Source: Glutamicibacter uratoxydans
GTDB lineage: Bacteria > Actinomycetota > Actinomycetes > Actinomycetales > Micrococcaceae
Reading direction: 5' to 3'
DNA length: 51,023 nucleotides
NCBI RefSeq assembly: GCF_006539925.1
Contig: NZ_BJNY01000023.1
Span: 1 to 51,023 of the forward strand
How positions within the stretch are numbered: the first letter of the stretch is position 1; each line of letters opens with the position of its first letter. The notes beneath the pieces are model-generated. The model was not told the DNA's origin. It ran no database searches and saw only the letters and a list, made by a program, of their open reading frames with translations. Below, piece by piece: positions 1 to 15,568 of the stretch. The translations under genes were made by a program, and so were the position numbers.

Positions 1-33
1 AGCCAGCTCGGTCAGTGCGGTGGAATTATTCAT
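1..33 (-). CDS. 5' end of an unidentified gene, cut by the window edge
   Basis: An ATG at 33-31 reads leftwards as MNNSTALTELA before the sequence ends. It follows a Shine-Dalgarno-like GGGAGAA about 5 nt upstream, so a real start is likely. It is the next minus-strand gene after the HopA1 gene, separated by 284 bp that contain a possible operator. The polar, Ser/Thr-containing start would suit a RiPP leader peptide, and the position next to the modification enzymes makes a precursor gene possible. Eleven residues cannot prove that; a regulator or enzyme is equally allowed. No function is assigned. Confidence 0.5.
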   Translation of the reverse strand, partial: MNNSTALTELA

Positions 34-317: not shown

Positions 318-1283
318 TCACACATAGTTTTCGGAAGGGTGCTCACTGTTGATACAGGCCAGTGCGGCTTGGTTGGCCCAAGCTTCCTTGATCGATATTC
401 GCTGATCGTGAGCATCAATAAGAGAGTCAGTTAGTATTCGAGAGCGATGTTGGCCAAAACTTAATCGGGCATATTCTGTACGCCGATCGGCAGGTTCCAT
501 AGCTATCGCTATTCCTGGACCGATCGTCCTGCTAAAAATGGAGGTTGGGCAGCTGACCGTCGCATTTCCCCAGAACATGCTTTGAAGCTCTTGTTCGACT
601 CTTGGTCTGTCCATGTTTGGCACGTAAACGACTATGGAATCGCTTCTGGGATATGCAGCAGACGAAGAGAGGACTTTGATATGGAAACCTGATGCGTGGG
701 TTTCAAGCATGTCCTGAAGGTGGCCCCAGCGAGACAGAGCCTGTTCCGCTGAGTCAGATGCTATGTAGAAACGAGTGGCGTTGCGACTGTCTTGAACACC
801 TTTACCACCGATGGCGAGTAAGTATCCTGGCGTAGTTCGCGCCCTCCAACTTGGCATTCGTACGGTTGCTAATCCGTCCGAGCTTTGTACGGCGACATCA
901 TCCCAAGGAACCAGTACTTTCACCCCGCCCAATTGCACAGTGGCGTGGACCTGGCCGTTCACTGTTTTCGAACTGCCATTAATTGATTTGTCGACTCGCT
1001 GCCAAATTGTTGGCTGCCGAATCTCGTCGATAAAATTCTGCGCGTAATCCTGATATCCCGTTGTTGGCTCATCAGCCAAGTGTGGGTTCTGCACATGATA
1101 TTGCAGGTAAATTTCGTGAGCGATCTGAGATCTCAGTTCACTGCGGCTGCCGGCTGACAAATGTTTATCGCCAATACGGGCTTGGATCGTCCGCAAGTTC
1201 AGTTTGGCGGTATTCGCAAAGTTTTCTAGGTGGCTTTCAAACGGTGATGCCACGAGACGATGTTGAGTTGTCAATAGACTCAT
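318..1283 (-). CDS. HopA1-domain protein, putative RiPP lyase (LxmY/TvaD-like)
   Basis: A 321-residue protein matching the HopA1 effector-domain family of actinobacteria. The fold's conserved C-terminal blocks are present: TPGYLLAIGG (151-160), the RFY strand (171-173), FHIKVLSSSAAYPRSD (200-215) followed by a VVYVP strand, and SFGQHRSRIL (275-284). In class V lanthipeptide (LxmY) and thioamitide (TvaD) clusters, HopA1 proteins work with an APH-type kinase: the kinase phosphorylates Ser/Thr in a precursor and the HopA1 protein eliminates phosphate to give dehydroamino acids. I chose the ATG at 1283, which has a GGGGGA ribosome site, rather than 1322; the gene then overlaps the kinase end by 47 bp, implying translational coupling. 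The family call is from motif recognition; the biochemical role is inferred from the partner gene. Confidence 0.75.
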   Translation of the reverse strand: MSLLTTQHRLVASPFESHLENFANTAKLNLRTIQARIGDKHLSAGSRSELRSQIAHEIYLQYHVQNPHLADEPTTGYQDYAQNFIDEIRQPTIWQRVDKSINGSSKTVNGQVHATVQLGGVKVLVPWDDVAVQSSDGLATVRMPSWRARTTPGYLLAIGGKGVQDSRNATRFYIASDSAEQALSRWGHLQDMLETHASGFHIKVLSSSAAYPRSDSIVVYVPNMDRPRVEQELQSMFWGNATVSCPTSIFSRTIGPGIAIAMEPADRRTEYARLSFGQHRSRILTDSLIDAHDQRISIKEAWANQAALACINSEHPSENYV

Positions 1284-2385
1284 TTGTATTTTCCCCCAAG
1301 CCAAGTGCTGCTTGATATGCATCGGGCGTAATCAATGCCCTGCGACCGATGCTTAGTGCAGCTCGTTCAATTCCCGATAGCTTCGAAACCATGCCAGCAC
1401 GGGCGATGGTCCTTTCCACTAGGTGCCATCCAAGCCGTGCTGTGGCACGCAGCCCTAGATTAGGATCGGATGCTTCTCTGTTGTTCTTATAGGTTTTCCA
1501 AAAATTTCCAATGTGGACAGTTGCCTCGTTCATGCGAGCTGCAATGAGAGTTGTTGCGCTCTGTTCATTAAATTTCTCTGGAGGCCTCTGCCCATCACCT
1601 CGCGAGGTGACCGTGTCGAGGATCGATCGGTATAACCACTCACCGGCCATCATTCCGACGTCCCTGGCGGCGTCCCCTCGACCGAAATCTTCCCAGTCCA
1701 AGAGCATGAGCTGCTCGTCGTTCAAATAGAACTGGTCAAGTCGAAGATCTCCGTGTATTGCCGCCGTGAGATTCTGCTTCTCGTCAGAAAGTAGATCTTC
1801 TGCCGCACAGATCAGTTCTTCGTCTTGCTGAAGCTGCGACCACAAATCCAATTCCGCCAGTGTCAAGTCGACATAACGGTTTTTGGGAATGCCGTGACGC
1901 AGCATCTGGACTATTCCGAAAACTGGCTTAGTTTCGGGCAGATGGTCACTTGGCAGATTATGCAGTTCCGCTACAACCTTCGCAGCCATACTCGCGAAGT
2001 TCTGAGGAAGCATTTCATCGACCAAGAGATGAGCCACCGATGTTCCTGCGCAATATTCGAAAGCAATTGCTTTGAGATTGTTGTCGCTGGCCAATACTCG
2101 TGGAGTCGTTTGATGGCTGCCTTGCACCTGGGTAATAGTTGATTCGTGCATCAATGATCGTTCAAAAGCATCTGCCGCAGAGGCTCCACTGACAAACCTT
2201 TTGACAAAGACTTTTGTGTGGTCTGCAAGGGTCATCACCCAGGTATCGTTTCTCCCTGCAAAAGCAGCAGGAGAAATTTCAATACTTTGCGGATATCCAC
2301 TGTCCTTTAGCAGGGAGTTGACCTGCTCGGCGGCTTCAAAGGTGGATGGAGCCGTTGAAGCTGGATGCTGGGCAGTGATTGCCAT
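1237..2385 (-). CDS. APH-family kinase, putative RiPP Ser/Thr kinase (LxmK/TvaC-like)
   Basis: A 382-residue aminoglycoside-phosphotransferase-fold protein. It shows the N-lobe lysine (K62 in VFVKRF), the catalytic-loop motif HGDLRLDQ (211-218, with Gln in place of the usual Asn) and the metal-binding LLDWEDFGRGDAARD (228-242). Start chosen at 2385, directly after AGAGGAC; the open frame runs 20 codons further upstream without a ribosome site. Taken alone it could be an antibiotic or small-molecule kinase. Its 47-bp overlap with a HopA1 gene, and the exporter upstream, point instead to the split dehydratase kinase of class V lanthipeptide or thioamitide pathways, acting on Ser/Thr of a ribosomal peptide in the cytoplasm. 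The substrate is not visible in this window. Confidence 0.75.
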   Translation of the reverse strand: MAITAQHPASTAPSTFEAAEQVNSLLKDSGYPQSIEISPAAFAGRNDTWVMTLADHTKVFVKRFVSGASAADAFERSLMHESTITQVQGSHQTTPRVLASDNNLKAIAFEYCAGTSVAHLLVDEMLPQNFASMAAKVVAELHNLPSDHLPETKPVFGIVQMLRHGIPKNRYVDLTLAELDLWSQLQQDEELICAAEDLLSDEKQNLTAAIHGDLRLDQFYLNDEQLMLLDWEDFGRGDAARDVGMMAGEWLYRSILDTVTSRGDGQRPPEKFNEQSATTLIAARMNEATVHIGNFWKTYKNNREASDPNLGLRATARLGWHLVERTIARAGMVSKLSGIERAALSIGRRALITPDAYQAALGLGENTNESIDNSTSSRGITV

Positions 2386-2452
2386 AATGTCCTCTTTCGT
2401 GCTGCGGATACCCGGGAGCCTGCATGCTCCACAAGTACCGCACACAATTCGT

Positions 2453-2581
2453 CTAGAGCAGGAAAGTAGTGACTACGTAAGCCGCCGCAATACCCAGAAT
2501 CAGCATGATTGCACTACGCAAGTACTTCTTAGTTGCAGCAGTCTTGGCTTCCTGGTTTTGGTGGTTCAGTTCGTTGTTCAT
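2453..2581 (-). CDS. 42-residue single-span membrane peptide
   Basis: A small gene in the gap between the ABC permease and the kinase. ATG at 2581 after AAGGAAAT, stop TAG at 2453. The product has a polar N-terminus (MNNELNHQNQEAK...), a KKYLR basic stretch at about 18-22 and one hydrophobic helix (about 23-42). It has no cysteine, so it cannot be a lanthionine-forming core. It fits either a small accessory or immunity subunit of the exporter or, less likely, a hydrophobic precursor with few Ser/Thr. Ribosome site, co-direction and tight spacing (45 bp after the permease, 67 bp before the kinase) argue that it is real. No family recognised. Confidence 0.6.
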   Translation of the reverse strand: MNNELNHQNQEAKTAATKKYLRSAIMLILGIAAAYVVTTFLL

Positions 2582-2626
2582 CGTTCTATTTCCTTACGTC
2601 GTTGATCTGTTAGTTCGAAACTGGGG

Positions 2627-3532
2627 CTAGATATCGTTGGCGGATCGGAGCGAAGCTCGCAGAGAGATCCGCGAACCGGTGCGCAACGCGTTGTTTGTAT
2701 AGAGCTTGGCGACAATGTTGAACAGCACTGGAATTGCCACCAGGGCAATGGCTGCAGCTGTGGCCATCTGCCACATCTCAACGCTTTCTAGGCCGAAACG
2801 AATTGGCATGAGGTAGGAGGAGAAGAGCGGCACAAACGAAAGAACCTTCAGCCAAGTGCTTTCCAAGTGTGTCGGCGCCATGTACAAAGAAACAACGAGC
2901 AAAACCATCTGAAGCACTGAAAGCGGCATCACTGCGCTGGCTAGGTCTTCTTGCCTTGCAACTGTTGCGGCTAGTGCTGTGTTCAATAGTGCGAAGACGG
3001 AATAGCCCAACAGGTACCAGACGATGAACCAAATGAGGGCCGGTCCAGGCTCAACCTGAAGGAAGGAGAAACCATCTTTAATGGCGAATCCTGCAACTGC
3101 AGCTCCGCCGATAAGCAGCAGTTGCGCCAGGCTCACGAGACCGATGCCGATGATTTTTCCGGCCAGCAACGGGCGTATACCGATTTTGGTCAGCAGGATC
3201 TCTACAATTCGCGAGGACTTCTCTTCAACAACGCCCGTTGTCAGCGACTGTGCGGAGTAGACCAGTGAAGCCAACAGTGCGCAGATCATGGCCGTTGCAA
3301 AAATCAGTTTGGGGTTCAGGTTCGCCGGCTCAGATCCCTGCATGCTGTTGCCAAGAAGCGTGGCGCCAAACCCTGCAGCTACTCCGACGCCGATAGCCAG
3401 CAACAGTGTGGTGATAAGGATCGTCCGGTTAGTGACACGCGTCAAAATTTCTCTTCGAATCACCAATAGCATTTCGCGTAGCGGCTGCCCCGACTGGGTG
3501 TTCAGCGAATCTTTCGATAGTGCGTTGCTCAT
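2627..3532 (-). CDS. ABC-2 type exporter permease
   Basis: A 301-residue multi-span protein of the ABC-2/NatB group. A cytoplasmic N-terminus with LVIRREILTRVTNRT (about 23-37) precedes the first helix. It then has a region (about 75-115) resembling the TTGVVEEKSSRIVEILLTK segment typical of NatB/CcmB-like permeases, followed by about five further helices. The start lies 2 nt past the stop of the ATPase gene, with GGAGTC as ribosome site, so both are surely one transporter. In a RiPP cluster it would export the product or give self-resistance; that role is inferred from context. Confidence 0.8.
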   Translation of the reverse strand: MSNALSKDSLNTQSGQPLREMLLVIRREILTRVTNRTILITTLLLAIGVGVAAGFGATLLGNSMQGSEPANLNPKLIFATAMICALLASLVYSAQSLTTGVVEEKSSRIVEILLTKIGIRPLLAGKIIGIGLVSLAQLLLIGGAAVAGFAIKDGFSFLQVEPGPALIWFIVWYLLGYSVFALLNTALAATVARQEDLASAVMPLSVLQMVLLVVSLYMAPTHLESTWLKVLSFVPLFSSYLMPIRFGLESVEMWQMATAAAIALVAIPVLFNIVAKLYTNNALRTGSRISLRASLRSANDI

Positions 3533-3534
3533 GA

Positions 3535-4503
3535 TCAGACTCCAGCCGTTTCGAGATTTTCAGCCGTTTCGCGGGCTTTCCCGCGACCAGCAGAGATGTA
3601 CTTTTCGTTTAGCAGCTCTTCCAGCGAACGCTGCACAGGTTCAATCCCCCGCAAGGACCCAAGTCGCCATGCCGCGGCAAGAACGTTGGGTGGAATATCG
3701 CCGTCCCCGTGGTCGAGGCTGACAAGTACTTCGCGTCGATTCTCCTGATTCAGCTGAACCGAAACACCTTCGACAAGTTCGGCCTCAGCAGCAAAAGACT
3801 CTGCACTTCGTGAGAAACAGAAGTTCCAACGGGACTGGTTTTCGCGTTTCAATTCAGAGATGGATCCGCTGGCAACCACATGACCTTTATCAAGAATGCA
3901 CACTCTGTCGCACAGCTTCTCTACAAGATCCAGCTGGTGGGATGAGAACAGCACGCCTACACCTTGCGCAGCTTGTTCTTGCAGAAGGGAACCCATTGTT
4001 GCTACAGCAGTTGGGTCCAAACCAGAGAACGGTTCATCGAGCACCAGCAGGTTTGGATTGCCTACGAGAGCAACTGCCAGCTGTACTCGTTGCTGATTGC
4101 CGAGGGACAGATCCTGGACGAGTGTCTTCTCGCGGCCCTGCAGCCCAAGTGAGGCGATGAGGTCATCTGCAATGCCACGAGCTGCCTTGGTGCTATTTCC
4201 CTCGAGCAATGCAAAGTGGATGATTTGTTCACGAATCGGCATCTGTGGGTAAAGGCCGCGCTCTTCGGGCATGTAGCCGATCTTCCTGCGGTCGGCGCTG
4301 GTGATCGGACGTCCGTCCCAGGTGATTTCACCGGTGTCAGCGGCCAGCAGACCCAAGATTAAACGCATGGTTGTGGTCTTTCCTGCACCGTTGCCGCCAA
4401 TGAAACCGACGATCTCTCCAGGCTGGACGCCAAGATCCATACTGTGCAGGACCGTGTGGTTTCCGAAGCTTCGGCTTACACCGTTGAGCTGCAGCCCATT
4501 CAT
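3535..4503 (-). CDS. ABC exporter ATP-binding protein
   Basis: A 322-residue single-nucleotide-binding-domain ATPase. Walker A GGNGAGKTT (36-44), a Q-loop region around YMPEERGLYPQM (78-89), signature LSLGNQQR (132-139, the form common in ABC-2 exporters), Walker B LLVLDEP (152-158) and switch His189. The C-terminal extension of about 100 residues resembles the DUF4162-type tail of such exporters. ATG at 4503 is preceded by GAAGAGGT; the open frame extends 27 codons upstream but crosses the palindrome at 4534-4548. First gene of the minus-strand cluster; partner of the permease 2 nt downstream. Confidence 0.85.
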   Translation of the reverse strand: MNGLQLNGVSRSFGNHTVLHSMDLGVQPGEIVGFIGGNGAGKTTTMRLILGLLAADTGEITWDGRPITSADRRKIGYMPEERGLYPQMPIREQIIHFALLEGNSTKAARGIADDLIASLGLQGREKTLVQDLSLGNQQRVQLAVALVGNPNLLVLDEPFSGLDPTAVATMGSLLQEQAAQGVGVLFSSHQLDLVEKLCDRVCILDKGHVVASGSISELKRENQSRWNFCFSRSAESFAAEAELVEGVSVQLNQENRREVLVSLDHGDGDIPPNVLAAAWRLGSLRGIEPVQRSLEELLNEKYISAGRGKARETAENLETAGV

Positions 4504-4579: not shown

Positions 4580-4607
4580 TACATATTCGGGCTGTCTAAA
4601 AGTTCAA
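4580..4607 (-). promoter_or_regulatory. Predicted promoter of the exporter/kinase/HopA1 cluster
   Basis: On the minus strand, TTGAAC (-35) and TATGTA (-10) are separated by 16 nt and lie about 77 nt before the ATPase start. A second symmetric element, TGTAC-TTAC-GTACA (4570-4583), overlaps the -10. Elements match consensus only partly. Confidence 0.35.
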
Positions 4608-5623: not shown

Positions 5624-5797
5624 GCGAGTATTTTAGCCCGAGCAGACCGCGAACCTATCATGCAATCGGTAGTCGAAAAGAGGCCGAAAGCTCTTCGTAA
5701 GACGAATGTCATGGGCGCCCATTTCTCTTGTGCGTGCGGGGTCGATAACGCATACTCAGGCTAGAAGCACAGCGTGCGTTATTCACCAGGGGGAATC

Positions 5798-6988
5798 ATG
5801 TCCAAGCATCACAAGTACCGCAGGTATGAGTCTTCCTATATGGCCGCCCCCCGGGACGGAATTGCACTGGAAGTGTTGGCCCACGCAGAAAAAGCTGGAG
5901 CCAAGGCAGGCTACGCGACCGCCAAGGAACACCTCTATCGCAACATCGGCGTGGGGGCAGCTCTGGGACAGGCTGAAATTGACGAGCTGCTCGCCGCCGC
6001 CGAACGCGCAGGAGCCGCTGCGGCCCTTGCTTCGGCACGCAAGGTACTCGCCAAGACGCTTCGCACCTCTTTCAGCCCTGCTCCGATGCAGGCACCTGCC
6101 GAGGCCCAACCCGCCCCGCTACCCATGACCCAACCGGTAGAGCCGGCTCCCTATGCGCAAACCTATGAGGAGCCACTGGCCAGATACAACCCGCCCATCG
6201 GCTATGTCCCCATGCCCAAGGTCAAAACCGATCAGCATGTCCTGACGGTGACCCGTGTACAGCGCCTGAGCGAACAGATGGTACGCGTCGTTGCTTCGGC
6301 ACCGAACCTCGGCGGCTACCGTTCCAATGGGGCGCTAGATGAGTACGTGAAGGTATTTGTCGCCGATCCAGCGCTGGGTCTGACACCTCCCTACGACCTG
6401 CGCACGTTGCGCCAGCACCTGCCGCGCGAGCTCATGCCACGCTCCAAGTCCTACACGATTCGTTGGGTTGATACGTTGACCGACGAGTTGGCCATCGACT
6501 TTGTCGTCCATGGGGAACCTGGAACGGTAGGCCATTGGGCTGGAACCGTTGAACCCGGGGCTGCGCTGGTGATCTCTCCGGCGCGCAGCAAGTCCTCATT
6601 CAAGCTCATTGCCGACAATTACATTTTGGCGGCGGACGAGGCAGGGATTCCTGCCATCAGCAAGATCCTAGAGGCACTGCCCGAGCAGGCGCAGGGAATT
6701 GCCCTGCTGGAAATCGCGGATCAGCAGTCAATGTTTGACGTGAAACATCCGGAAAACGTTGATTTACGCTGGGTCACCAGGGACGGCGTCCCTGCAGGCC
6801 GCAGCAATGTCCTACTCTCAGCCTTCCAGGAACTGCAACTACCGGCGATGAACACCACCGTGGTTGCCCATGCCGAACGTTCGACGATCAAGGCCATTGG
6901 GCATGTCTGCGACCAATGGAGGATCCATAAGGGTCAACGACACATCTCCTCCTACTGGACCCTGCGCGAAGACCGATTGCTACGCTAG
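5798..6988 (+). CDS. Siderophore-interacting protein with an Ala-rich N-terminal extension
   Basis: A 396-residue protein. The C-terminal two thirds (from about residue 145) are a ViuB/SIP-type flavin reductase: an FAD-binding beta-barrel with the SYTIRWVD block and a NAD(P)H-binding domain. It would reduce Fe(III)-siderophore in the cytoplasm to free Fe(II). The first about 130 residues are unlike ordinary SIPs: helical, Ala/Glu-rich (LLAAAERAGAAAALASARK) and then Pro-rich. ATG at 5798 follows AGGGGGAA; the open frame begins earlier with a GTG at 5774. A second SIP is encoded at 13438. The lipase follows after 37 nt. Confidence 0.85.
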   Translation: MSKHHKYRRYESSYMAAPRDGIALEVLAHAEKAGAKAGYATAKEHLYRNIGVGAALGQAEIDELLAAAERAGAAAALASARKVLAKTLRTSFSPAPMQAPAEAQPAPLPMTQPVEPAPYAQTYEEPLARYNPPIGYVPMPKVKTDQHVLTVTRVQRLSEQMVRVVASAPNLGGYRSNGALDEYVKVFVADPALGLTPPYDLRTLRQHLPRELMPRSKSYTIRWVDTLTDELAIDFVVHGEPGTVGHWAGTVEPGAALVISPARSKSSFKLIADNYILAADEAGIPAISKILEALPEQAQGIALLEIADQQSMFDVKHPENVDLRWVTRDGVPAGRSNVLLSAFQELQLPAMNTTVVAHAERSTIKAIGHVCDQWRIHKGQRHISSYWTLREDRLLR

Positions 6989-10352: not shown

Positions 10353-11372
10353 GTGCGAACTACGCTGTTTAAACTCGCTTCTGCATCCGCCACCGTGGCA
10401 CTTGCCCTAACGCTCGGGGCCTGCTCCAGCAACGCGCCTCAGTCATCTGCGGACGAGAACAAGCCTGCAGCTGATGCGGGGCAATGGCCGCGCACGGTGA
10501 CCGATGATCAGGGGCAGCAGGTGGAAATCCCTGCTCAGCCGAAGAAGATCGTCTCAACCACGGTCTCGACTACCGGCACGCTACTGGCCATCGATGCACC
10601 CGTCGTTGCCAGCTCAACCGGTGCAGTTGGTCCAGAAACTGATGAGAATGGGTTCTTCAGTCAATGGTCAGACGTTGCCTCCGAGCGCAAGGTCGAACCC
10701 ATTTACCAGGTTGGCAACTTCAATTTGGAATCGGTCTTGGCTCAAGATCCTGATCTCATCATCGTCTCAACTTCGGGTGCCGACTCGGAACTCGACTATG
10801 TAGATCGGCTCAATGACATCGCTCCGACGCTCGTGGTGAATTACGGCGGAAAAGACTGGAAAGAATTAGCGACACAGCTTGGCGAAGCAACCGGATTGGA
10901 GGCCAACGCCGAGAATATCGCCGATGAATTCGATCAGAGGTCTAAGGCGGTCAAGGACAAGTTGAACATCCCCGAGGGAACTTCCGCATCGATCGTCTCC
11001 TACAACAAGGGCAAGGACTCCCCCGTGGGTAAAACCAGCGGACCGCATTCACGGCTGATTTCGGCCCTTGGATTCGCAGTTGTTGATCCGCCAGCAGAAT
11101 TCGACACCTCCACCCAGAAGCGCGAAGATTTTGCGTTTACGTCCTATGAGGGTCTCTCGGAGTCGGCCACCGGCGATGCGACATTCCTGATCTCGGCCAC
11201 CGACAAGACGGCAGACGCCTTCACCGCTGATCCAACGCTTGCCAATATTCCATCGGTGAAAAATAAGAATGTCTTCCCCCTGGCTAATTCCTTCCGGCTG
11301 GACTATTACTCCTCCAATGACATTCTCGACTACTTTGAGTCTGACTTTCCGGGCCTGAACTCAGCAAAGTAA
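10353..11372 (+). CDS. fepB: Ferric-siderophore binding lipoprotein
   Basis: A 339-residue periplasmic-binding-type lipoprotein: signal peptide with lipobox LGAC (Cys24), then a FecB/FepB fold (TVTDDQGQQVEIPAQPKKIV, about 49-68; a long helix; SRLISALGFAV in the second lobe). It captures the Fe(III)-siderophore at the cell surface and hands it to the permeases that follow 2 nt downstream. GTG start at 10353 after GGGGAGA. The FepB-like reading is supported by the Fes-type esterase in the same operon. Controlled by the iron box upstream. Confidence 0.85.
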   Translation: MRTTLFKLASASATVALALTLGACSSNAPQSSADENKPAADAGQWPRTVTDDQGQQVEIPAQPKKIVSTTVSTTGTLLAIDAPVVASSTGAVGPETDENGFFSQWSDVASERKVEPIYQVGNFNLESVLAQDPDLIIVSTSGADSELDYVDRLNDIAPTLVVNYGGKDWKELATQLGEATGLEANAENIADEFDQRSKAVKDKLNIPEGTSASIVSYNKGKDSPVGKTSGPHSRLISALGFAVVDPPAEFDTSTQKREDFAFTSYEGLSESATGDATFLISATDKTADAFTADPTLANIPSVKNKNVFPLANSFRLDYYSSNDILDYFESDFPGLNSAK

Positions 11373-11374
11373 CC

Positions 11375-12397
11375 GTGCTGCAAAAAACAACAACGACACG
11401 CTTCCAGCCGCGCGTCCTGATCTGGCTGGCGGCGGCCGTTGCAACTACGCTCCTAGTTCTTATTTCCTGCGCCGTCGGCAGCAAGGGCATTGCCCTAGCT
11501 GAGTCGTGGCAGGCGATCACCGCATTCGATGAATCGAACAACAACCATCTGTTGGTTCACGAACTGCGTATACCGCGCACTATCTTGGCCTTGGTAGTTG
11601 GAGCGGCGCTTGGTTTGGCTGGAGCGTTGATGCAGTCGCAGACACGCAATCCATTGGCCGAGCCAGGGCTGCTGGGCGTCAATGCCGGCGCTGCCTTCGC
11701 CGTCTCCATTGCCATCACCTTTGGTGTAGTTCAGCCGTCGGGCTATATGCTCTTTGCCTTTTGCGGCGCGGCAGCGGCAAGCATCATCGTCTATCTCATG
11801 GGCGCGGGACAGCGCGCCGGGAACGACGTTGTACGGCTGGTGCTGGCGGGTGCTGGTCTTTCGGTCATGCTCATGGCCGCTACCCAGATTCTGATCATCG
11901 GCGGAAGCTCAGATGTTCACGCGAGATTCGCCGCCTGGACTACCGGTTCCCTACAGGGACGAGGCTATGACGTGCTGCCGGTGACCACTGCAGTAGTCGC
12001 CGTCGGAGCACTGATCGCCCTGGCGCTGACCCGTTCCTTAGACGCGCTTGCCCTTGGCAATGACAGTGCTCGCGCCCTAGGCATCAATTCGGGAAAAATC
12101 TGGTTCGTCTCATCTGCCGCCATCATGCTGCTGGCAGGCGCGGCCACCGCTGCCGCGGGACCGATCAGCTTCATCGGGCTTGCAGCGCCGCACGCCTCAC
12201 GGCTGATGGTGGGCCCGAGCCATGCCCGCTTTCTTCCGCTGTCTATGATGCTCGGCGCTGCCATCCTGTTGGTGGCAGACGTTCTTGGGCGAGTCGTTTC
12301 AGCACCAGCAGAGATCGGAGCAGGAGCCATGAGCGCCCTCATTGGTGCTCCGCTGTTCATCATGCTCGCCCGCAAAAAGCTCAAGGCTGGCCGATGA
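11375..12397 (+). CDS. fepD: FecCD-type siderophore permease 1
   Basis: A 340-residue permease with about nine or ten membrane helices. FecCD-family hallmarks are ELRIPRTILALVVGAALGLA (about 63-82), QSQTRNPLAEPGLLGVNAGA (88-107) and AAAGPISFIGLAAPH (about 258-272). It forms the membrane channel with the next permease, whose start overlaps its stop (ATGA). The GTG start at 11375, 2 nt after the lipoprotein stop, has no clear ribosome site, so translation is probably coupled. Confidence 0.9.
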   Translation: MLQKTTTTRFQPRVLIWLAAAVATTLLVLISCAVGSKGIALAESWQAITAFDESNNNHLLVHELRIPRTILALVVGAALGLAGALMQSQTRNPLAEPGLLGVNAGAAFAVSIAITFGVVQPSGYMLFAFCGAAAASIIVYLMGAGQRAGNDVVRLVLAGAGLSVMLMAATQILIIGGSSDVHARFAAWTTGSLQGRGYDVLPVTTAVVAVGALIALALTRSLDALALGNDSARALGINSGKIWFVSSAAIMLLAGAATAAAGPISFIGLAAPHASRLMVGPSHARFLPLSMMLGAAILLVADVLGRVVSAPAEIGAGAMSALIGAPLFIMLARKKLKAGR

Positions 12398-13401
12398 CTA
12401 CCCCCACTATCAACAGCTCCCTGCGCCGGAGCCTCATTCTTTCGATCATCGCGGCTTTGCTTGCCATAACCTGTGTCGTAGCGCTGGGCACTGGGACAAT
12501 TTCGTTGAGCCCCCGCGAAGTGCTGGCAGCACTCTTTGGACAGGCAGACGCCAAGGACCTTTTGGTCATCCAGAAAATTCGCGCCCCACGGGTACTCACC
12601 GCCCTGGGCGTTGGGGCAGCACTCGGAGCGGCAGGAGCGTGTTTTCAGTCAATTTCGCGCAATCCGCTGGGCAGCCCCGACATCATCGGATTTACCACCG
12701 GTGCAGCCACTGGCGCAGTAGCACAGATCGTCTTGTTCAACGCAGGCGTCTGGGCTACCGGGGTGGCGGCGATGATCAGCGGCCTGCTCACCGCAGCCGT
12801 TGTTTACCTTCTGTCTTTTTCACGTCGGACGACCGGAGGCCAGCGCTTGGTCATCATCGGCATCGGCGTTGGAGCAATGCTGGGTGCCGTCAACACCCTG
12901 CTGCTCTCGAAGGGCGACGCAGATCTAGCGGCTCAAGCAAACCTGTGGCTTTCCGGATCACTCGGCGGGCGCAGCTGGGCCGACGCACTGCTGGTGGGAA
13001 TCGCAGTGCTGGTGCTCATACCGTTGCTAGTTGCCCATTCGAGAAGTCTGACGCTGCTGGAAATGGGAGATGACACCGCCAGCGCCCTCGGGGTCGGCGC
13101 CGAAACAGTTCGGCGGATCGTCATATTCGCCGCAGTCTGCCTCACAGCAGCAGCCACCGCGGCCGCAGGACCCATTGCCTTCGTAGCCCTGGCTTCCGGC
13201 CAGATTATCCGTCAACTGATCGGCAATCGATCAGTTCCAATCATTCCGGCGGCGATGACCGGTGCGCTGTTGCTGGTTTCCTGCGATGTTCTCACCCAGC
13301 ATCTGCCGCTTCAGGCACAGGTGCCCATCGGATTGGCCACCTCGCTGGCAGGTGGACTTTACCTGTTGTGGCTGCTCACCCGGCACCGTGTAAGAACCTA
13401 A
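12394..13401 (+). CDS. fepG: FecCD-type siderophore permease 2
   Basis: A 335-residue FecCD-family permease. Visible marks: KIRAPRVLTALGVGAALGAA (about 49-68), SISRNPLGSPDIIGFTTGAA (75-94) and AAAGPIAFVALASGQ (about 255-269). It overlaps permease 1 by 4 bp and precedes the siderophore reductase by 36 bp. Together with permease 1 it makes the usual heterodimer. No FepC-type ATPase gene follows, which is unusual. Confidence 0.9.
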   Translation: MTTPTINSSLRRSLILSIIAALLAITCVVALGTGTISLSPREVLAALFGQADAKDLLVIQKIRAPRVLTALGVGAALGAAGACFQSISRNPLGSPDIIGFTTGAATGAVAQIVLFNAGVWATGVAAMISGLLTAAVVYLLSFSRRTTGGQRLVIIGIGVGAMLGAVNTLLLSKGDADLAAQANLWLSGSLGGRSWADALLVGIAVLVLIPLLVAHSRSLTLLEMGDDTASALGVGAETVRRIVIFAAVCLTAAATAAAGPIAFVALASGQIIRQLIGNRSVPIIPAAMTGALLLVSCDVLTQHLPLQAQVPIGLATSLAGGLYLLWLLTRHRVRT

Positions 13402-13437
13402 GCACCCAGTCCCATCAGTAGAAGAGGAACATTCAGC

Positions 13438-14292
13438 ATGCCTGCCAAGGAACTTCGGGTCGCACAGATCCAGGACTTTACGCCGAAAATGCGAAGGGTA
13501 GTTTTCGACGGCCCCGGCGTTGCGCAATACGCCGCGCATCCACCCTGCGTCCCCAATATCAAACTGTATTTTCCGAAGCCGGGACAGCTACTGGACCACC
13601 CGGGAGTTGATGATCGGGGCAGGTGGGCATTTACCGGAGACCAGCGTTCTCGGGTGCGCACCTATACCGTCCGCTGGCTTGATGAAGCAGCCGGGCGGAT
13701 GGCCATCGACTTTGTACGCCACGGTGACGAGGGCCTAGCCAGCGCCTGGGTTGAGCGGATCGCACCGGGTTCGATTCTCGGCGCCTTGGGCGGCGGCGGT
13801 CGCGTGCTCAAGCCCGGCGGATATGCCCTGCTTTTCGGCGATGAAACCGCCTTGCCCGCCATCAGCGACACCCTTGAACAGATGCCCGAAGTTCAAGAGG
13901 GCCAGGTCTTCATCGAGGTTGCTGACCATGAGGAAATCCACGATCTAGAAAAGCCCGACGGAGTGCAGATCACCTGGCTGCTGCGCGCGGGAAAACCTGC
14001 CGGGACCACCCACCTGCTGAAAACCGCGATGCAAAATCTGGAACTGCCCACCGACGTTGAACAGGTACAACTCTGGGTATCAGCCGAATCCGAGGTAGTG
14101 CGCTTTGCCCGCTCCTGGGCTGCCGGGGTAGGCATCCCCAAGGGCAACCGACTGATCATCGGCTATTGGCATCGCGATCTCGACGAACTGGCCTATGCCA
14201 ATGACAGCGACCACGACCGGGTCAGCGGAGAAATGCTCTTTGAACGACAGGGACACGAACGCGAGATGAATCATGCACACTCCCACCACTAG
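13438..14292 (+). CDS. Siderophore-interacting protein (ferric-siderophore reductase)
   Basis: A 284-residue ViuB/SIP-type flavoprotein without the N-terminal extension seen in the copy at 5798. FAD-binding features are RVRTYTVRWLDE (about 70-81) and FVRHGDEG (about 92-99); the C-terminal half is NAD(P)H-binding-like. ATG at 13438 follows AGAGGAAC. It would reduce the imported Fe(III)-siderophore in the cytoplasm. Its 3' end overlaps the esterase gene by 20 bp. Confidence 0.9.
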   Translation: MPAKELRVAQIQDFTPKMRRVVFDGPGVAQYAAHPPCVPNIKLYFPKPGQLLDHPGVDDRGRWAFTGDQRSRVRTYTVRWLDEAAGRMAIDFVRHGDEGLASAWVERIAPGSILGALGGGGRVLKPGGYALLFGDETALPAISDTLEQMPEVQEGQVFIEVADHEEIHDLEKPDGVQITWLLRAGKPAGTTHLLKTAMQNLELPTDVEQVQLWVSAESEVVRFARSWAAGVGIPKGNRLIIGYWHRDLDELAYANDSDHDRVSGEMLFERQGHEREMNHAHSHH

Positions 14293-15568
14293 AATCCCCA
14301 GACCCCAACCGCGCGGCAGCGGCGCCGCCACACCGCGCGTCTACAACCACCTCGCATTAACATCCAGCCGCGAACAGCTTCTTGGCCTTGCCGCCCAGCT
14401 TCGGGAGCGAGAGCTGGACTATCCCCTCTTCACCGATGCCGGCGACGGGCAAGTATTCGCCACCTTCCTCTGGGTGGATGCCCCCGTTGTGGAACCCGCC
14501 AGCAACGTCGTCCTCTCGGCCAATGCGCTGGTCGATCACGAAGAACTTGAGGCCTGCGAGTTCGAGCGACCGGCTCCCGGCCTGTGGTCAATTACGCTGC
14601 GGGTGCCCGCTGACTGGATCGCCTCCTACCGGATTACTGTGCACTATGGCGACGAACCGGCCCCCTGGCGTCGGGAAACCGAGCGGCGGGCCATCCGGCT
14701 TGCGGCGGATTCCGGCGGTGTGGATCCGTTGAATCCGTTGATTGGCGCGTCGATGAACGGCGCCCCGGTGTCAATTGTCCGCGGGCCGACCGCCCCACGC
14801 AACGATGCCTTGGCCGATGCCACCGCTGATCTTGGCCAGCAGGGGCCATCCATTGGCGGCACCGGCGCAGCTTCGACTCACGATACTGCACAGCACCCGC
14901 GCATGACCCGGCATCAACTATGGGACGAAAACTGCCAGCGACCGCGCGACCTCTGGGTCTATCAACCGCCGGCCCCTGCCGAAGATACTCCGCTGGTCTT
15001 TGTACACGACGGCGCCACCTGGACGAACTACCTCAATATCCGCAGCACCCTGGACACTGCCATCTCCCGCGGCGCGCTGGCACCGTTGCATGTGGTGTTC
15101 ATCGACAGCACGACGACCGAGATCCGAGGTGAGGAGCTACCGGTGGCCTCGGGTACCACCCGATCGCTGGCCGAACAGTTCCTGCCCTGGGCCAGGCGTT
15201 TCCTCCCGGTCAGCGCCGACCCCGCACAGACCCTGATCACCGGTGCATCCTATGGCGGGCTTGCTTCCGTATTGACGGTCCTAGAGCACCCGAACCTCTT
15301 CGGCCTTGCCTTGGCCCAGTCTCCATCTTTGTGGCACACCGACCTGCGCGAACAGTTAACCGAGCTAGATCCGTCGGTACGCGTGCTCATGCAAGCCGGA
15401 TGCTATGAAACAGAAATCTTCGATTCCTGTCAGCGGGCGCTCCAGCACCTCGCGGGATCCCCGGTCCGTGAACAGATTGAATTTCAAGAGATCTCAGGGG
15501 GCCACGACTGGGCATGGTGGAACGTCAAACTCCTTGAAGGTCTCATCGAGTTCTTCCCCGAGTCTTGA
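14273..15568 (+). CDS. fes: Fes-type enterochelin esterase
   Basis: A 431-residue protein. The N-terminal domain (about 35-175) matches the Fes N-terminal beta domain. The C-terminal alpha/beta hydrolase has nucleophile Ser326 in GASYGG and catalytic His411 in GGHDWAWW. It hydrolyses the ester backbone of catecholate tri-lactone siderophores to release iron after uptake. It overlaps the SIP gene by 20 bp and ends the operon before the terminator at 15588. A low-complexity segment (about 175-208) separates the domains. The exact siderophore is unknown, and no synthesis genes are in the window, so it may be a xenosiderophore. Confidence 0.85.
   Translation: MHTPTTRIPRPQPRGSGAATPRVYNHLALTSSREQLLGLAAQLRERELDYPLFTDAGDGQVFATFLWVDAPVVEPASNVVLSANALVDHEELEACEFERPAPGLWSITLRVPADWIASYRITVHYGDEPAPWRRETERRAIRLAADSGGVDPLNPLIGASMNGAPVSIVRGPTAPRNDALADATADLGQQGPSIGGTGAASTHDTAQHPRMTRHQLWDENCQRPRDLWVYQPPAPAEDTPLVFVHDGATWTNYLNIRSTLDTAISRGALAPLHVVFIDSTTTEIRGEELPVASGTTRSLAEQFLPWARRFLPVSADPAQTLITGASYGGLASVLTVLEHPNLFGLALAQSPSLWHTDLREQLTELDPSVRVLMQAGCYETEIFDSCQRALQHLAGSPVREQIEFQEISGGHDWAWWNVKLLEGLIEFFPES

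Follow-up and report, generated by a model that had tools for sequence, protein, structure and literature searches.

The window, the whole stretch of 51,023 nucleotides analysed here, is a complete contig (G000:C23:1-51023) of a Glutamicibacter uratoxydans assembly and very probably carries the opening half of a lexapeptide/rosin-type class Va lanthipeptide cluster. The remaining genes are found on another contig of this assembly, C31, placed beside the window by gene order and synteny. The cluster almost certainly makes small ring-stapled peptides, class V lanthipeptides, a class with many antibiotics among its members.

Genes at the two contig ends

A preliminary description of the window listed a kinase, a HopA1 gene, an exporter pair and a small peptide gene in one direction, and these genes are present as given, all on the minus strand. 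The window half of the cluster contains the following:

1..33, minus strand: 5' end of a lanA precursor gene, probably of alpha type (start codon plus 10 codons, MNNSTALTELA..., where the contig stops)
318..1283, minus strand: lanY, HopA1-family phospho-Ser/Thr lyase
1237..2385, minus strand: lanK, APH-fold kinase of the class V lanthionine synthetase (LxmK)
2453..2581, minus strand: 42-residue single-pass membrane peptide
2627..3532, minus strand: ABC-2 type permease of the exporter (PF12698, E 1.8e-20)
3535..4503, minus strand: exporter ABC ATPase, which opens the run (PF00005, E 9e-32; in-frame ATG also at 4584)

The search of 318-1283 against PF17914 (HopA1), set beforehand as a test of the lyase assignment, returned an E value of 1e-24 and 87.7 bits (cut-off, 22.7). 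The kinase assignment was borne out by PF01636 (APH; E 1.4e-12) and by the NCBIfam model NF038156 (LxmK), which LanK matches at 318.8 bits against a cut-off of 315, a margin of only 3.8 bits. LanK and LanY match both chains of one solved dehydratase complex, that of lexapeptide (LxmKY, 9dk1; PMC12141560), LanK matching chain A (E 7e-36) and LanY chain B (E 5e-19). LanK residues K62, D213, Q218 and D230 and LanY residues R171, K203, R213, Y220 and H63 are identical in all 24 sequences. The LanY residues are the catalytic residues of cacaoidin CaoY (PMC9486802), with R171, K203, R213 and Y220 equivalent to R187, K219, R229 and Y236 and H63 probably to H57. The models, the structural matches and these residues agree with the split Ser/Thr dehydratase of class V lanthipeptide type proposed at the outset. 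The two genes overlap by 47 bases (1237-1283); the lanY open reading frame spans 318-1322, with a further ATG at 1283 and GGGGGAAA just ahead of it. The 42-residue peptide has one hydrophobic stretch and a polar, basic N-terminus, reaches the cut-off of none of the Pfam or NCBIfam families, and is a candidate immunity or exporter accessory protein.

Because the window is a whole contig, the sequence to its left is absent from the assembly and should not be read as empty. Its last 33 bases at the left end (1-33) start a precursor gene, and 8 of the 11 encoded residues equal those of the G254 precursor start, MSNTTALTDLA..., when the sequences are read directly. Precursors sit directly after lanY in relatives, at the same place as this start, and by gene order it is probably alpha and not beta. 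Contig C31 was spotted via its M16 peptidase, which is 44% identical to that of MYb229. It opens with a precursor end, FCAGVIIGATLTLGC-stop, and continues as follows:

C31 1-48: precursor end, ending in Cys
C31 132-770: LanD, flavin-dependent Cys decarboxylase (PF02441, 57.8 bits, above cut-off)
C31 767-1645: LanX, pseudokinase (HGQ in place of kinase HxD)
C31 1639-2880: P1, M16 peptidase (PF00675, E 3e-15)
C31 2880-3809: P2, M16 peptidase (by the MYb229 P2 model)
C31, after P2: response regulator and histidine kinase (NarL-type two-component system)

LanD scores 88 bits with the CypD model, far below its cut-off of 215, and slightly higher, 90 bits, with the CoaBC model, likewise below cut-off. 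LanX falls just short of the Pfam APH cut-off (22.5 versus 23.2 bits), and a phmmer search of the PDB gave only weak matches, to an unrelated protein. The best PDB match of the modelled MYb229 LanX, a relative's protein, is TvaE with leader peptide (8jsu; E 4e-6), a meaningful match although the model is of low confidence (mean pLDDT 59). P2 of this genome matched no Pfam or NCBIfam family; the modelled MYb229 P2, again a relative's protein, has an M16B fold, with 3ami as its best PDB match. No PF05147 (LanC) match was found in the whole draft genome, by a search positive in 1 of 14 control genomes, and a class Vb cluster, which needs LanC, was rejected. The cluster has no space for a LanJ reductase gene or a methyltransferase gene; the lxm cluster carries methyltransferase and reductase genes, neither of which is present here. 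The locus combines several features of class Va: a stand-alone LanK, a stand-alone LanY with the lyase residues, LanD and LanX, with LanC unmatched. Discovery of C31 overturned the earlier suggestion of a compact, decarboxylase-free pathway, with LanD, LanX and the proteases encoded in the same genome. The short precursor-like reading frame anticipated in the left flank is accounted for by the precursor end on C31 and by the precursor genes of relatives.

The ends of C23 and C31 have no DNA overlap, so their join rests on gene order and synteny, and the window's left end has no second copy elsewhere in the genome. The order ATPase-permease-lanK-lanY-[precursors]-lanD-lanX-P1-P2-response regulator/histidine kinase occurs in 13/13 relatives whose cluster does not run into a contig end; NIO-1057, the 14th, breaks off within a precursor and stands outside this count, a second genome broken at the same spot. 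Genes purQ (C31 side) and SIP (C23 side) lie on one contig and one strand, 3.7-13.5 kb apart, in all 16 other Glutamicibacter genomes with a SIP match, a match that in four of them covers only the last ~250 residues (53-56%); TAG codons interrupt the frame in three. The shared order and this synteny together place the two ends side by side, and by these comparisons it is within the precursor genes that the assembly broke, leaving the gap.

Relatives and their precursors

Relatives were gathered with an alignment query, a single-protein query having yielded none. The cluster is present in 8 of 18 Glutamicibacter genomes, the other 10 having no LanY match, and in some Arthrobacter and Rothia. 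The preliminary guess of an Arthrobacter-like host was right as to family (Micrococcaceae), the genus being Glutamicibacter. ATPase, permease, lanK and lanY are consecutive in that order in 14/14 Micrococcaceae clusters of the type, so their association is not due to chance. The ATPase (57-75% identity in 11 relatives) and the permease (58-75% in 11) are each present in 14/14, as is a small hydrophobic reading frame between permease and lanK, detected with a filter that required a hydrophobic run. LanK is identical between JC586 and NIO-1057. On the sequence tree, the window and L079 are flagged as long branches of unsure placement. The genes flanking the locus had no tblastn match (E 1e-5) in 17 loci (the 14 clusters of the type and three remote ones), compared for most loci over ~6 kb to the left and 1.5 kb to the right of the cluster; the site therefore seems to vary between strains. 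A plasmid search returned 28 records with related kinases, with identity below 60% among the matches listed (15 of 28).

Thirty complete precursors were read from 13 relatives' clusters, 12 of which hold two to four in tandem and encode two core types, alpha and beta; two distinct precursors are conserved together, as in two-component lanthipeptides. The alpha core reads T[ST]P[LVF]C[IV]G[IV]I[IV]GATLG[AT]GC in 15/16 (that of S41 is TSPLCIGIIVGATLGAGC) and the beta core T[ST]PFC[AV]GV[ILV]IG[AFL]TLT[AMV]GC in 14/14 (that of Arthrobacter is TTPFCAGVIIGATLTMGC). These counts include the third PS precursor and L118 and omit an alpha copy from the Rothia MAG that carries a frameshift; neither NIO-1057 nor the window enters any of the precursor counts. 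Cores are 18 residues long, except for the 19-residue alpha core of R. endophytica, and contain three or four Ser/Thr. Small residues are spaced as G7xxxG11xxxG15 in 15/16 alpha cores and G7xxxG11xxxT15 in 14/14 beta cores. Leader sequences in any one cluster have been homogenised, whereas the cores are conserved by type across three genera; comparisons at equal length omit the R. endophytica alpha core and hence remove its cluster from the same-cluster pairs. Two precursors tested against the LxmA leader model NF038146 (cut-off, 25 bits) scored 26.1 and 18.1. JC586, a Glutamicibacter, has a single precursor, so the alpha/beta pair is not universal. The cores of the window's own genome are only partly known because its precursors are incomplete in the assembly.

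Proposed pathway and alternative readings

By analogy with characterised homologues, short precursors with an LxmA-type leader would be produced and their C-terminal Cys oxidatively decarboxylated by LanD to an enethiol. LanK would phosphorylate core Ser/Thr, and elimination of the phosphate by LanY would yield Dha/Dhb. At the N-terminus, the T-[ST]-P-x-C motif would form a (methyl)lanthionine ring, probably Thr1-Cys5, and LanX would close a C-terminal AviMeCys ring (Thr13-Cys18). The M16 pair P1/P2 would remove the leader, the ABC pair would export the peptide with the small membrane protein as immunity or export helper, and the NarL-type two-component system would regulate the cluster. In relatives, the outcome would be two matched hydrophobic peptides.

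A two-peptide product is plausible. It is rather probable, though, that alpha and beta are separate products with no joint action, forming a small library of the kind known from sistertides A1/A2 and rosins A1-A3. Separate peptides from multi-precursor class V clusters have been published (sistertides, kebanetides and rosins), class V clusters of Streptosporangiaceae hold 3-7 precursor-like reading frames with different cores, some alike between species (L095-L097), and JC586 has just one core. Independence sits less well with the retention of both core types, at near-equal length, in 12/13 clusters from three genera; the other class V clusters compared have less regular sets of precursors. 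A tentative and less likely idea is that alpha and beta work jointly in membranes, as short hydrophobic helices that are stapled and bear small-residue zippers; a single synthetase set would serve both, gene conversion would equalise the leaders, selection would keep the cores apart, and the small membrane peptide would protect the producer.

Other readings concern the cluster as a whole. It is very unlikely to be decayed or orphaned, its product no longer made: the precursor region is broken in its own assembly and 10 of 18 Glutamicibacter genomes have no LanY match, but the eleven non-precursor genes on both contigs are all open frames, LanK and LanY keep their catalytic residues, and the break falls where 12/13 relatives hold tandem precursors and where NIO-1057 also breaks. 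A thioamitide-type pathway without visible partners, an option raised in the preliminary description, is highly improbable. LanK and LanY are homologous to TvaC and TvaD according to the literature, and the modelled MYb229 LanX appears structurally nearest to TvaE. Yet the draft genome gave no match to PF02624, the family of YcaO, the defining enzyme of thioamitides (5 of 14 control genomes did), LanK lies above the class V equivalog cut-off, and in the precursors the leader follows the class V register while the core carries an N-terminal Cys motif. That the HopA1 protein and kinase form a pair with a signalling or effector role and no connection to RiPPs, as the naming of PF17914 for a secreted plant-pathogen effector might suggest, is scarcely conceivable given their linkage to LanD, LanX, M16 peptidases and precursors in 13/13 uncut relatives.

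Comparison with known lanthipeptides and significance

Among class Va systems, the available description of rosin (ros; PMC12291118) shares LanK, LanY, LanD, LanX, two M16B peptidases and ABC transporter genes with the present cluster, and likewise has several precursors, no N-methyltransferase, the core motif (Dhx)2-Xxx-Xxx-Cys and a C-terminal Thr-X4-Cys. It differs in its LanJ F420 reductase, not found here, and in having three transporter genes rather than one ABC pair, while the conserved run here adds the small membrane peptide and the two-component system. Rosin A1 has 25 residues and nine dehydrations, against 18-19 residues and three or four Ser/Thr here; LxmA undergoes eight dehydrations (PMC12141560). 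As outlined in PMC11162475, the massatide A core starts with TTVPC, compared with T[ST]P[LVF]C here, and both share the C-terminal T-X4-C; massatide A and the sistertides undergo reduction, and methylation is found on massatide A and sistertide A1, whereas no genes for such steps are seen here. Sistertides A1/A2, like alpha and beta, are two products of one enzyme set with a shared leader and different cores, and show that two-product class V clusters are already published (PMC11162475), but the two sistertide cores are very unlike each other in length and in number of rings, and alpha and beta are near-equal in size. Cacaoidin (CaoK/CaoY/CaoA) has the same leader register, with an aromatic residue at -17, Glu at -12, Leu/Ile at -11 and Pro at -2; position -17 is a fully conserved Tyr in the type-A set reported in PMC9486802 and Phe in 19/30 precursors here. 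Two-component class II lantibiotics (haloduracin, lichenicidin) also have two conserved, different precursors per cluster, but here a single modification set serves both.

The preliminary description placed such pathways mainly in Streptomyces-type hosts; class V gene pairs outside Streptomyces are already in print (PMC7794033). Searches of open-access main texts found no mention of five core strings and no paper on class V lanthipeptides in Micrococcaceae; the available part of PMC10456417 contains no class V. Some of these loci may well be included in the 851- and 1172-cluster lists of PMC12291118 and PMC11162475.

What looked like an odd, truncated gene pair becomes a complete peptide pathway, open to testing, in a family with small genomes, and the case shows how clusters of this type can go unnoticed when tandem precursor genes leave them at the end of a contig. 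With three or four Ser/Thr in a very short chain, the cores offer unusually simple substrates for the study of dehydration, ring closure and LanX. The pattern of leader and core evolution leads to the hypothesis that the two peptides may be under joint selection.

Gene run at the left end of the window

The window is one complete contig (C23) of a draft genome in 49 contigs. Its leftmost genes, for which the preliminary description gave correct coordinates, are as follows.

Genes at the left end of the window
3535-4503, minus strand: ABC ATPase (ORF and profile match)
2627-3532, minus strand: ABC-2 permease (ORF and profile match)
2453-2581, minus strand: 42-residue membrane peptide (ORF read)
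1237-2385, minus strand: kinase, LanK (LxmK profile match)
318-1283, minus strand: HopA1-family protein, LanY (HopA1 profile match)

The gene at 318-1283, earlier assigned to HopA1, matches that profile strongly (E 1e-24) and is the sole HopA1 match found in the genome. The kinase scores 318.8 bits against LxmK, the model for the kinase subunit of class V lanthionine synthetase, exceeding the NCBI curated cut-off of 315 bits. Between permease and lanK, all 14 relatives (Micrococcaceae clusters of the same type) contain an ORF of 37-65 residues that carries a single hydrophobic segment at one terminus.

Searched against the Protein Data Bank, kinase and lyase each matched one of the two chains in a shared set of entries, 9dk1-3 (E 7e-36 and 5e-19, respectively); 9DK1 is identified in a review as the lexapeptide dehydratase LxmKY (PMC12141560). 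In CaoY, the cacaoidin lyase, R187 and K219 are reported as critical, R229 and His57 as contributing, and Tyr236 as the counterpart of a catalytic Tyr in SpvC (PMC9486802). Residues R171, K203, R213, and Y220 of the window LanY are spaced as in CaoY, and we take its His at 63 to correspond to His57. These five residues are invariant across 24/24 aligned sequences, as are K62, D213, Q218, and D230 of the kinase. In a tree built from LanK, a single group (support, 100/100) comprises the window sequence together with 14 others from Micrococcaceae. The window has a long branch there (0.6), of a kind whose position the tool flags as uncertain. Kinase relatives on plasmids occur in Streptomyces (22), Pediococcus (3), Nonomuraea (2), and Arthrobacter (1), all below 60% identity.

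ORF translations read by eye show an iron-siderophore uptake region at 10353-15568 (a lipoprotein, two permeases, a siderophore-interacting protein, and an esterase-like protein). Several flavin monooxygenase-like and acyl-CoA-dehydrogenase-like genes with ABC importers, read in the same way, lie at 15645-48960, a set resembling those for organosulfur use.

The second half of the cluster and its class

Read from 33 to 1, the minus strand of the window is ATG AAT AAT TCC ACC GCA CTG ACC GAG CTG GCT (MNNSTALTELA), and precursor genes occupy the equivalent place in relatives, e.g., MSNTTALTDLAQAHTIYAAPDELGADAAAEAPATSPLCIGIIVGATLGTGC. When the M16 peptidase of relatives was used as a query, the genome gave a match 1.7 kb from the start of another contig, C31. 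Reading into this contig, FCAGVIIGATLTLGC and its stop codon come first; LanD (PF02441), LanX, the M16 peptidase P1, and a further protein, P2, come next. Then, in convergent orientation, lie a NarL-type response regulator and a histidine kinase, and beyond them purL and purQ (both recognized by eye). The ends of C23 and C31 have no overlapping DNA. A siderophore-interacting protein gene (SIP; window 5774-6988, named by eye) and purQ share a contig and a strand, separated by 3.7-13.5 kb, in 16/16 other Glutamicibacter genomes with a SIP match, which is partial in 4 of the 16; SIP was not found in one further Glutamicibacter, PS. Because of this synteny, C31 and C23 very probably adjoin, with the cluster between them, and the assembly break very probably falls inside the precursor genes. 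Two to four precursor genes are present in 12/13 relatives, and the contig of NIO-1057 ends at the same place as the window.

On C31, a 37-residue ORF with a GTG start (6083-6196, plus strand) is divergent from the histidine kinase gene; its signal-peptide-like start is followed by ATTGFWCAQLGWWC, which ends in Cys. It may serve the two-component system as a secreted pheromone, or it may be a small peptide in its own right. With the filter used, no such ORF was found beside the histidine kinase in 13 relatives.

The gene content equals the class Va set of the rosin paper, given there as LanK, LanY, LanD, and LanX with M16B peptidases (PMC12291118). In 13/13 relatives whose cluster is not interrupted by the end of a contig, the genes run ATPase, permease, K, Y, D, X, P1, P2, followed by the response regulator and histidine kinase in convergent orientation. 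For the MYb229 relative, the predicted LanX structure (mean pLDDT, 59) best matches TvaE in complex with its leader peptide (8jsu; E 4e-6), and the good P2 prediction (pLDDT, 88.5) matches M16B subunits, best 3ami. Class Vb is spoken against by the absence of any LanC match in the genome, and a thioamitide by the absence of any YcaO match there.

The run leaves no room for LanJ reductase and methyltransferase genes: within it, gaps between neighboring genes are an estimated 95 bases or fewer, precursor and small-ORF stretches aside, except for 510 bases in a Rothia metagenome-assembled genome (MAG), where LanX is frameshifted. The frames are close together in the window's own genome as well. 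The lack of these tailoring genes in the run agrees with the cores, which hold only three or four Ser/Thr each. In the Rothia MAG, the first precursor (an alpha copy) and lanX both carry frameshifts, which may reflect either errors in the MAG or genuine decay.

Alpha and beta precursors

With the core assumed to start at Thr1, position -17 is aromatic, -12 is Glu, and -11 is Leu/Ile in 28 precursors; mutations in CaoA are reported to show that these positions matter (PMC9486802). Position -17 is Phe in 19/30 and Tyr in 11/30 sequences (the 28 plus two of L118), whereas Tyr is described as fully conserved there throughout the type A set of the same cacaoidin paper. The product would be an 18-residue, helical peptide with two rings.

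Clusters with readable precursors contain both alpha and beta types, as assigned from core position 15 (four residues from the end), in 12/13 relatives. The window's own genome holds precursor fragments only, and Glutamicibacter sp. JC586 has one core, TSPFCVGVLIGATLTAGC. No other cluster has just one precursor, and the core looks like an alpha/beta hybrid that may have arisen via recombination or assembly collapse.

Within one cluster, alpha and beta share 91% identity in their leaders (-28 to -1) and 63% in their cores (17 pairs); for the same type across genera, the values are 61% and 86% (123 pairs). Where the amino acid is the same, an alpha-beta pair from one cluster uses identical codons at 78% in leaders and 63% in cores; between genera, the figures are 41-43% and 57-58%, respectively. 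These patterns fit leaders homogenized by gene conversion, with selection keeping the cores apart. When core position 15 is left out, cores of different genera are 85% identical within a type and 64% across types, a difference reached by 0/5000 within-cluster label shuffles; the comparisons cover only three genera, with close relatives inside each.

Distribution and relation to published systems

Counting the window's own genome, LxmK exceeds the cut-off in 13/395 genomes of the family and 6/396 of a phylum sample. LanY-positive genomes number 8/18 in Glutamicibacter, 3/35 in Rothia, and 7/206 in Arthrobacter, the last comprising four of this cluster type and three remote by score. The genus of the window is called Glutamicibacter because it includes JC586 and PS; strains labeled Arthrobacter sp. 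NIO-1057, S41, and MYb229 belong to it as well. The cluster site seems to vary among strains, since none of the genes flanking it in the window turned up next to it in 14 relatives and the cluster lies far from purQ in two genomes (G254 and G142).

Published work already covers class V gene pairs in hosts other than Streptomyces (PMC7794033), class Va cluster lists obtained by genome mining (PMC12291118, PMC11162475), and the sistertides, from two-product class V clusters with shared leaders (PMC11162475). Our literature search of open-access papers found no published description of a Micrococcaceae clade with paired short cores.
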